DNA of 64,000 nt from Opitutia bacterium (lineage in GTDB: Bacteria; Verrucomicrobiota; Verrucomicrobiia; Opitutales; Opitutaceae). A model generated the notes under the pieces. The model had not been told where the DNA came from. It searched no databases and was given only the letters and a program-made list of their open reading frames with translations. Each line of letters starts with the position of its first letter. The stretch's first letter is position 1. The position numbers and the translations under genes were made by a program. Positions 20,802-23,468 of this stretch are shown in pieces. Where the stretch lies: the NCBI GenBank assembly GCA_016187925.1, contig JACPIS010000001.1:1-64000 (forward strand). The letters are read 5' to 3'.

Positions 20802-22076
20802 TCAAGCCGTCCCGGAATCGGGATGTGCCTCGTCGTCCGCCGCCGGTGATTCGACGGAGGCGAACAGGGGTTCGGCGCCCGTGATCTGCGCGCCCTCGCG
20901 CGTCCAGCGGTAGAGCAGCGGCCCGCGCGCGCGCTTGAGCGACTTGAACAGCGCCCTGTCCACGCGCTGCTGCAACGTCAGCTCCTCCACGCCCGCCGCG
21001 CTGCAGTTGAAGATCTTCGCGTAGCCCTTGTAGATGCGCGGATCGCCGAGGATGCGGGAGGCACCCGTATCAGTCTCCTCCTGTAGCGACGCTCTATGGG
21101 CGCCGTCAGCGGCCTCTCCAGTTTTTCTCGCCAGCACCAAAAAACTATACGGCAGCGCGCGCAGATCGATGCCGGCGCGCTGGCCGAAGCGCACCCAGTT
21201 AGAGTCGGCGAAAATCTCCGGCGGCGGCGACGCGAAATGGTGGCACCAATGCCGCGCGTTCTCCGGCGCCAGCAGGCCGCACGCCGCCTGGTGCGTGCAC
21301 GGCGCCACGACTTCGAACGCGCTGCGCCATTGCTGGCGCCAGCCGACGAGCGCGCGGCTGACCTCGTGCGTGCCGGGCTCGACCCAGAGCACGGTCTGCG
21401 CGCGGGCGATCAACTCGCCCAGCTCAGCGCGCGCGGTGTCGTCGAGCTCGTTGAGCACATGGCTGACCACCAGCACGCCGATCGGTGCGTCGCCGCGCAG
21501 GTCGCGTACGCTCGCGCGCTCGACCGTCAGCCCCGGGAACTGCTTCCGCGCCGTGTGCTCCGCGTAATCCATCGCCAGCGCTGAGTGGTCATGCACCACC
21601 AGTCGCGAGAAATGGTGCGCGCTGAAAAACTCCGTCACCCGCCGGCCCGCGACACCGCTGCCGCAACCCCAGTCGAGGATATCGGACTTGGGGTGGAGCG
21701 GATTGACCTCAATCCGCTCAGAGCGCGTTGGGGTCAGCGCGCTCCACCTATCACCGGCGGTAGGGGGAGGCGAGTCCGTGTCCGAGCCTGTCATTGCGAG
21801 ACGGCCGGCTTCGCCCGACGGCGAAGCAATCCGGCTGACTGGATTGCCACACCCGCCGTTGGCGGGCTCGCGATGACAAAGCGGAGGCGCCCAGCCGCGC
21901 TGCCGCAACTCACGCAACACGGCGTCCCATTTCCAGCCGATGCGCTCGCCGTAGGTCAGGTCGTAGCACTCGAGGTCGGTCAGCGTGTGCCAGTAGGGGC
22001 CGGCCGACTTTGCGTCCGTCAAAAACGTCTCCCGCAGCCGGTCGAGCACCTCCCAGTCGAGTGATTCCCAGTTCAT
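20802..22076 (-). CDS. Rsm22-family class I SAM methyltransferase with in-frame repeat insertion
   Basis: The 424-residue product matches the small-ribosomal-subunit Rsm22 family. SAM motif I is DWGCGSG (about 132-138). The family motifs WVEPGTH, CTHQAACGLL and HWCHHF are present; in Rsm22 proteins cysteines of this region bind an Fe-S cluster. Family knowledge points to ribosomal RNA or ribosome assembly, but the exact target is not known. Residues about 65-130 are not family sequence: they are encoded by two palindromic repeats (21692-21748 and 21790-21877) that keep the frame open and end just before motif I. The last codons also contain the activator site of the next operon. Confidence 0.85.
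   Translation of the reverse strand: MNWESLDWEVLDRLRETFLTDAKSAGPYWHTLTDLECYDLTYGERIGWKWDAVLRELRQRGWAPPLCHREPANGGCGNPVSRIASPSGEAGRLAMTGSDTDSPPPTAGDRWSALTPTRSERIEVNPLHPKSDILDWGCGSGVAGRRVTEFFSAHHFSRLVVHDHSALAMDYAEHTARKQFPGLTVERASVRDLRGDAPIGVLVVSHVLNELDDTARAELGELIARAQTVLWVEPGTHEVSRALVGWRQQWRSAFEVVAPCTHQAACGLLAPENARHWCHHFASPPPEIFADSNWVRFGQRAGIDLRALPYSFLVLARKTGEAADGAHRASLQEETDTGASRILGDPRIYKGYAKIFNCSAAGVEELTLQQRVDRALFKSLKRARGPLLYRWTREGAQITGAEPLFASVESPAADDEAHPDSGTA
20810..20823. promoter_or_regulatory. Upstream activator site TCCC-N6-GGGA (ATPase-ADOP operon)
   Basis: TCCCGGAATCGGGA is centred about 130 bp upstream of the predicted start. It lies inside the last codons of the Rsm22-like methyltransferase gene, so its conservation there is not explained by intergenic position. 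Confidence 0.72.
21692..21748. repeat. Palindromic repeat inside the Rsm22-like gene (GGTGGAGCG...CGCTCCACC)
   Basis: The 57-bp element has terminal inverted arms GGTGGAGCG and CGCTCCACC, with an internal CGGATTGA/TCAATCCG pairing. It is translated as part of the insertion before SAM motif I. Confidence 0.75.
21790..21877. repeat. Palindromic repeat inside the Rsm22-like gene (GTCATTGCGAG type)
   Basis: The 88-bp element begins GTCATTGCGAG and ends CTCGCGATGAC, near-perfect inverted ends. GAAGCAATCC and GGATTGCC lie in the middle. This style of dispersed repeat occurs between genes in many bacteria. Here it is within a coding region and in frame. Confidence 0.78.
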
Positions 22077-22108
22077 TTCCGATGGAGGCTGAAATGCGGA
22101 CGCGGATT

Positions 22109-22134
22109 GGCCACAAAAAACACGAAAACGGCAA
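22109..22134. repeat. A-rich direct repeat, first copy
   Basis: GGCCACAAAAAACACGAAAA followed by CGGCAA lies between the two methyltransferase genes. A similar block is at 23542-23567, so the repeats flank the gene at 22137-23468 in direct orientation. Confidence 0.4.
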
Positions 22135-22136
22135 TG

Positions 22137-23468
22137 CTACGGCAGATTGAAATCCAGATGCCGCGCGAGCGCCTGGGTCCTGATGCCGTAGAAGGCGGCG
22201 AGGTCGCGGATGGCGCGGGCGTTTTTCTCGCGGAGCGTAGGGGCATCGGGTGCGGGGCGCTTGGTGGCGGCGATCATGAGGTTCTTCGCCGTGTGCTCGG
22301 TGGAGATGAACTCGAAGACCTTGGTGTCGTAGCCGGCCCAGTCGAGCAGGAGCGCGCGCAGGGCGTCGGTGGCGAACTCGGCGTGGCGCTCCTGGAAAAT
22401 CCCGTGGCGCAGTGCGGGGGCCAGCACCGGCGCCGCGGTCAACTGCGGGCGCAGCTCTTTCTGGCAGCAGGGGGCGACGACGAGCAGCGACGCGCCGGCG
22501 GCGAGGCCGCGGGCGAGGGCGTCGTCGGTGGCGGTGTCGCACGCGTGCAGCGCGATGAGCACGTCGAGCCGGTCCAGCCGGGCGTCCTGGATGGTGCCGG
22601 CCTCGAAGCGCAGATGCGCGCGCTGGGTGTCGCGCGCGATGTCGTTGCAGAGCTGTACCAGCTCAGGACGGAACTCGATGCCGCGCACGTGTGCCGGGCG
22701 GTGGGCGACGAGGTTGAAGTAGTCGTGCGTGGCGAACGTCAGGTAGCCCTTGCCGCAGCCCATGTCGGCGATCTCGAGCGGGCGGGGGTAGGGCGAGGCG
22801 TCCCCGCCGAGCCGTTCGGCCGGGTGTGATGCTTTGGCCGAGTCGAACGGCGTCGGCTCACCGGGACGGCGCTCAGTGCTGGTGCCTGAGCGGTTCGCCC
22901 GACCTTCGGATTCAGGCGTGCCGGCGGGACCAAGCAGATTCGCATCGGCGACGAGGTGGCTGAGGATCTCAACGAACTTGTGGATCTGGCGGTGCTTGTC
23001 GGCGAGGCCCTCGCGCACGACGCCGGCGGAGTTGGTGACGCCGAGCGCGTGCAGCCAGCCCTGGCTGTCGGCCGGGAGCAGGCGGGCCTTGGTGCGGTCG
23101 TGGCTGGCCTCGGTATTCACCGGGGCGGCCTTGCCGAAGGTGAGGCGTGGCTCGCCCTTCTTGTTGTATTCGAGCTGCACGGTGCGGGCGGGAGTGAAGA
23201 GGTGCGCGCTGTGGAAACCGGTGCCGATGAGCTCGCCCAGCTGCCGGAGCGCCTCCGCGGGCGGGTGGTTCTTCGTCACGTCGTTGGTGGCGTGCCGCCA
23301 GAGGAACGAGTAGTGTGTGGCGCCGCGCAGGGCGACCGGCCGGACGAAGAGGTTCTCCAGCGACGGCTCCGTGCCGCGCGGCTTGCCGAGCGTGAGCTTC
23401 ACGAGCGCGCCGTCGTGCACGCTGGCGGCGAGCAGGCGGAGAAATTCGTCGCGAGGAGCGGCGGTCAT
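22137..23468 (-). CDS. Class I SAM methyltransferase (Methyltransf_32 type) with in-frame repeat insertion
   Basis: The 443-residue product has an N-terminal domain (SFLWRHATNDVTKNHPPAEA), then a Rossmann methyltransferase fold. Motif I is DMGCGKGYLTFA (about 234), motif II GIEFRPELV, then ALHACDTATDDAL and VVAPCCQKEL, the signature of the METTL25-like/Methyltransf_32 group. The substrate is not known. Residues about 181-227 are low in family character and are encoded by a repeat block at 22787-22926 that starts with the family A core, so the element landed in frame just before motif I. The ATG at 23468 was chosen because upstream codons look like untranslated, repeat-containing DNA. It lies 60 nt upstream of the Rsm22-like gene on the same strand. 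Confidence 0.85.
   Translation of the reverse strand: MTAAPRDEFLRLLAASVHDGALVKLTLGKPRGTEPSLENLFVRPVALRGATHYSFLWRHATNDVTKNHPPAEALRQLGELIGTGFHSAHLFTPARTVQLEYNKKGEPRLTFGKAAPVNTEASHDRTKARLLPADSQGWLHALGVTNSAGVVREGLADKHRQIHKFVEILSHLVADANLLGPAGTPESEGRANRSGTSTERRPGEPTPFDSAKASHPAERLGGDASPYPRPLEIADMGCGKGYLTFATHDYFNLVAHRPAHVRGIEFRPELVQLCNDIARDTQRAHLRFEAGTIQDARLDRLDVLIALHACDTATDDALARGLAAGASLLVVAPCCQKELRPQLTAAPVLAPALRHGIFQERHAEFATDALRALLLDWAGYDTKVFEFISTEHTAKNLMIAATKRPAPDAPTLREKNARAIRDLAAFYGIRTQALARHLDFNLP
22787..22926. repeat. Family A-related repeat block inside the methyltransferase gene
   Basis: It begins GGTAGGGCGAGGCGTCC and continues into CGCCGAGCCG, matching one half of the palindrome at 181-234. 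The rest is rich in short inverted repeats. The block is translated without a stop. The right edge is approximate. Confidence 0.6.

Follow-up and report, generated by a model that had tools for sequence, protein, structure and literature searches.

REP elements inserted in frame in protein-coding genes have been described in Opitutus terrae, in which both uvrA genes are doubly interrupted; flexible linkers were proposed as possibly tolerating such inserts, and most of the O. terrae GTAG-20 elements have a GTGG foot (PMC3733652). That paper assigns the Rickettsia palindromic elements RPE-4 and RPE-6 to the CGTC class. The palindromes described here, inside two neighbouring methyltransferase genes of another member of the Opitutaceae, are very probably mobile elements of the REP/BIME type, whose gene-internal copies would persist only if they are in frame, free of stop codons and located in a disordered or interdomain joint.

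Palindromic elements in two neighbouring methyltransferase genes

The stretch of DNA analysed (the window; 64,000 nucleotides) lies on contig C44 of a 4.0-Mb draft genome (G000; 48 contigs, completeness 100, contamination 0.64). Two adjacent genes, both on the minus strand, carry the following features:

20802-22076, minus strand: Rsm22-like (METTL17-type) methyltransferase gene, 424 aa (Pfam Rsm22, E 4e-16)
21082-21105, plus strand: REP unit of family D (TGTAGCGACGCTCTATGGGCGCCG), in frame, within a second loop of Rsm22 at about residues 324-332
21692-21748: family C REP dimer (GGTGGAGCGGATTGACCTCAATCCGCTC and its inverted partner), 57 bp, in frame
21759-21788, plus strand: REP unit, probably of family A and decayed, within the 41-bp spacer that separates the family C and family B elements
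21790-21877: family B palindrome (GTCATTGCGAG ... CTCGCGATGAC), 88 bp, in frame
22137-23468, minus strand: Methyltransf_32 gene, 443 aa (Pfam Methyltransf_32, E 8e-32)
22787-22904: family A BIME, comprising a REP (GGTAGGGCGAGGCGTCCCCGCCGAGCCG), a loop and an inverted REP with an extended arm, in frame
22905-22926: tail of the 141-bp insertion, about 22 bp, compared with the repeat units of the genome without a match

The Rsm22-like gene is host to three or four palindromic elements, and residues 66-131 of its product are encoded by the family B palindrome, the spacer and the family C dimer. Residues 180-226 of the Methyltransf_32 protein are mostly the family A dimer. A preliminary description of this DNA had reported repeats read in frame in both genes, and all are indeed open in the two coding frames. 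Its lengths for the two Rsm22 repeats were exact, and both repeats were found again; it had overlooked the family D unit and the unit in the spacer. The spacer probably derives from a family A REP that has decayed, judging from its sequence (p 0.003 for that unit, uncorrected, with 10 units tried). In the Methyltransf_32 gene the description had placed a 140-bp family A block; the family is correct and the extent is now refined, the dimer lying within a net insertion of 141 bp, or 47 codons, relative to the canonical linker.

The abundance of the repeats was taken from pattern matches, BLAST copy counts being lower bounds (40 candidates scored). Family A gave 95 matches in the genome compared with 3 for a reversed control, family C 64 compared with 0, and family D 33 compared with 8; at least 10 further copies of family B were found by BLAST. 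For families E, F and H-K the scan covered the fetched stretches. Family A has a GTAG foot, an outer stem of GGC/GCC, GA on either side and a 4-bp inner stem, which covaries (GGCG/CGCC, ACCG/CGGT, GTTC/GAAC, ATCC/GGAT) around a fixed GTAGGGCGA...GAGCC. Its distribution among relatives is patchy, with between 0 and 146 units. Each of families A, C and D is a palindrome of 20-40 bp that has an unpaired GTAG foot (GTGG in family C) at one end and a high copy number, as in GTAG-tagged REP/BIME elements; A and C form inverted pairs as dimers, and D occurs mostly as single units. Family B, inspected by eye, has a TGTC foot (ends TGTC/GACA), the arms ATTGC...GCAAT and a CC(A) tail. It resembles, and may belong to, the CGTC class, defined by a C/TGTC foot, an 8-9 bp stem starting with AT, a loop of 4-5 bases and a CCA tail. 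Elsewhere in the window, positions 139-243 and 2552-2656 form an inverted family A pair that is 92% complementary with 2.3 kb between the arms, and positions 12500-45200 hold a row of about a dozen paralogous permease genes, presumably MacB/FtsX-like, as repeated coding blocks.

Structure searches show that the predicted structures of both proteins resemble SAM-methyltransferases. For the Rsm22 protein, the top Foldseek matches were chain 7 of 8csr and 8csp, human mitoribosomal small-subunit assembly intermediates; we take this chain to be METTL17. Among the named organisms with the closest relatives of this second protein, Methyltransf_32, are Opitutus, Oleiharenicola and Candidatus Didemnitutus, which points to a genome of the Opitutaceae. 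In the AlphaFold2 models the inserts share one structural site, where the last N-terminal helix leads into beta-1 of the SAM fold, in agreement with the equivalent position first proposed for them. Both are predicted to loop out as long, low-confidence segments, with pLDDT mostly below 50 in the insert and mostly above 90 in the core, the insert values being depressed partly because the aligned sequences do not cover the inserts.

Empty sites in orthologues and refilling of the joint

Alignments of 65 Rsm22 and 57 Methyltransf_32 sequences from the order were used to compare the two sites. Rsm22 residues 66-131 have no counterpart in relatives, and in most same-genus genomes the flanks are only a few bases apart. 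The only other long insert at this site, in G006, is formed by another palindrome, of which that genome has dozens of copies. Methyltransf_32 residues 180-226 are likewise missing from same-genus genomes, where the flanks are contiguous. Orthologues lacking the insert, with which the preliminary description had proposed to align both proteins, exist among close kin for both genes. From DK to GKG the Methyltransf_32 linker measures 87 residues in the window and 38-41 residues in nearly all distant homologues, including nearly all the cyanobacteria, proteobacteria and bacteroidetes compared, and up to 49 residues in a few homologues outside Verrucomicrobiota. The objection raised at the outset, that distant bacteria might possess homologous residues in these regions, does not hold, since most distant homologues keep the canonical spacing.

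In the clade of 14 members that surrounds the window, every Methyltransf_32 linker has 7 residues apart from those of the window (54) and G039 (34). The nearest row to the window on the protein tree has the canonical 7-residue linker, and G039, whose corresponding joint also holds a family A REP, is placed elsewhere. It is extremely unlikely that the inserts are an old, variable ancestral linker that is merely repeat-like. Such a linker would fit the 19 of 57 Methyltransf_32 sequences that have at least 10 extra residues, many of them palindrome-free, but it is contradicted by multi-copy palindromes with sharp boundaries, by empty sites in same-genus kin, by the short linker of the nearest tree row and by the canonical spacing in distant bacteria. 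As far as the aligned sequences go, the inserts are confirmed as lineage-specific and non-ancestral.

The Methyltransf_32 joint is filled in other species by a family A REP (G039), by family C dimers (G054, G043) and by another palindrome (G047), and on the protein tree no fewer than 14 changes are required to account for the long linkers there. Because several palindrome families occupy this one position across species and so many changes are needed, the joint before beta-1 is demonstrated, at the level of sequence comparison, to be a recurrent acceptor site, or hot spot. REPs do not account for all expansions there, as several relatives have long linkers that show no palindrome. The linkers of G015, G016 and G052, from three other genera (L093, L102, L112), hold a translated TCAACTC-type short tandem repeat.

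The suggestion that this joint is the only tolerant linker of the fold was not upheld. The second Rsm22 loop, which holds the family D REP in the window, is at least 10 residues longer in about 8 sequences, with inserts of about 50 residues in G039 and G018, and G042 carries a REP-like dimer in a different Methyltransf_32 loop, near residue 116. With a little less than even confidence, we suggest that Opitutaceae REPs act as a natural linker-scanning mutagen, in which interdomain joints are refilled by different families in different species and linkers are lengthened across the proteome; in the same tentative reading, the favoured joint would be the one directly preceding the first strand of a SAM- or nucleotide-binding fold.

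Translated repeats across the genome and a candidate mobiliser

Elements inside genes were counted in the fetched stretches by means of a simple score of codon usage, for which the window served as training set, in place of gene calls. For family A, 13 of 79 elements are embedded in coding sequence, in frame and stop-free (12 without the N-terminal case L058, which may precede the actual start codon); the same is true of 6 of 32 family C elements. Frameshifted or stop-containing copies of A and frameshifted copies of C, inspected by eye, are all intergenic. Single-arm in-frame cases of family B were spurious 11-13-mers inside genes and were excluded from the counts. That the inserts are absent from the proteins, through ribosome bypass or RNA processing that would make the frame irrelevant, was also considered. 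In yeast mitochondria ribosomes bypass GC-rich hairpins during translation, and the hairpins here are strong. Nevertheless, all gene-internal A copies found are in frame and stop-free, although only four of six reading frames are open in the A core and only three of six in the C core, and we regard bypass or processing as exceedingly improbable.

The proposed count of in-frame insertions was carried out, and about 20 genes of the genome carry in-frame REPs. The hosts include UvrA (several inserts), AlaRS, PurL, Mfd, NuoG and NuoM, as well as adenine deaminase, Nnr, an OGG-type glycosylase, methylmalonyl-CoA mutase and a SpoU methylase. Of 17 inserts, 12 are located beyond a Pfam domain or at its margin, compared with 3.9 expected and with none of 200,000 simulations as high, a count that is inflated in so far as an insert may itself disrupt the Pfam match. 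A duplicated UvrA-type gene (L366 1636-7500; G000:C38, about 31-37 kb) has an open frame of 1955 aa with at least four separate in-frame REP inserts: two of family A, one of family C and one of the GTAGGGCGG type, the latter two shortly before P-loop segments. In a gene adjoining methylmalonyl-CoA mutase (L019 216-243; G000:C27), a translated GTAGGGCGG-type REP lies about 10 residues before the P-loop AGPGGAGKST.

The occurrence of such repeats in two adjacent genes had been called striking. With about 20 tagged genes among an assumed 3,500 or so, chance alone would give approximately 0.1 adjacent tagged pairs (n squared over N). The use of the same joint in two methyltransferases adds some surprise, but since about 20 genes carry such inserts, mostly at domain boundaries, and the joint is a hot spot, two tagged neighbours are only mildly surprising. 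It is very unlikely that the two genes are in decay or that the inserts arose as errors of assembly. In favour of this stands that the genome is a draft in 48 contigs with many repeats; its completeness and contamination values, the conserved motifs and coding bias that both genes retain on either side of the insert, and the many housekeeping genes with similar inserts all speak against it.

An adaptive role, in which the REP-coded peptide alters RNA binding, partner binding or regulation of both enzymes, is unlikely, if less so than the other alternatives. The inserts lie beside the SAM site, repair genes recur among the hosts (UvrA, Mfd, the OGG-type glycosylase), and changed activity of repair genes has been speculated upon (PMC3733652). 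However, the one joint is filled by different families and by unrelated sequences, the inserts are mostly confined to single species, and the loop is predicted to be disordered. Most likely, the REP-coded peptide would be a neutral, floppy loop.

A gene for a REP-associated tyrosine transposase (RAYT; L127; G000:C5, about 84.5 kb) scores 91 bits against the NCBIfam RAYT equivalog, above the cut-off of 80, and is flanked on both sides by family A REPs in opposite orientation. Family A was the only family found to flank a RAYT gene in this way: a search for a RAYT beside family C or D found none, and no transposase for family B, C or D was identified. Judging from this arrangement, a RAYT of the L127 type is the candidate mobiliser of family A. 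REP-like palindromes adjoin 6 of 8 Y1-type transposase genes (L123-L128) on one or both sides; besides L127, five such genes adjoin other REP-like palindromes, mostly of a different family for each gene, and several REP-RAYT systems seem to coexist in the genome. In the RAYT gene L128 a REP-like palindrome encodes the C-terminus.

In the mechanism that we propose for mobile palindromes, family A would be moved by a RAYT like that on C5, and elements would land at many sites inside and outside genes. Selection would then keep those intragenic copies that preserve the frame, contain no stop and lie in a disordered or interdomain location. The junction of the N-terminal domain with beta-1 of the methyltransferase core would be such a place, and may for that reason have been filled independently in the two neighbours and in orthologues elsewhere.

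Comparison with known palindromic elements

The elements share with the REP/BIME/REPIN and RAYT (TnpA_REP) systems a foot and hairpin, inverted pairs and a RAYT gene bracketed by its own repeat (PMC2817692, PMC3116915, PMC8266576). There REPs are described as extragenic, whereas about one sixth of the family A elements are intragenic here. The preliminary description had likened the inserts to Rickettsia palindromic elements. As characterised in PMC3733652, these are likewise palindromes inserted in frame in genes, and family B resembles, by description, the class of RPE-4 and RPE-6, while families A, C and D belong to the GTAG class; the Rickettsia hosts belong to a different phylum from the present one. 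That comparison fits the kind of element, but a closer precedent is provided by the REPs of Opitutus terrae (PMC3733652).

With the intragenic GTAG-tagged REPs of O. terrae the present elements have in common the bacterial family, the GTAG/GTGG foot, the hairpin and dimers, as well as in-frame insertion into genes, several inserts per gene and uvrA as a target. Methyltransferases are not named in the main text of that paper (PMC3733652). New here are the empty sites, one joint refilled across species, the RAYT locus of family A and the enrichment at domain edges. The locus shows how an element regarded as extragenic turns into protein, with empty sites and a candidate mobiliser, and how one joint was refilled repeatedly during evolution. 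A census across the Opitutaceae would provide a natural map of the insertion-tolerant sites of housekeeping enzymes. The present case is a further instance of a known REP habit in Opitutaceae, with added comparative evidence.
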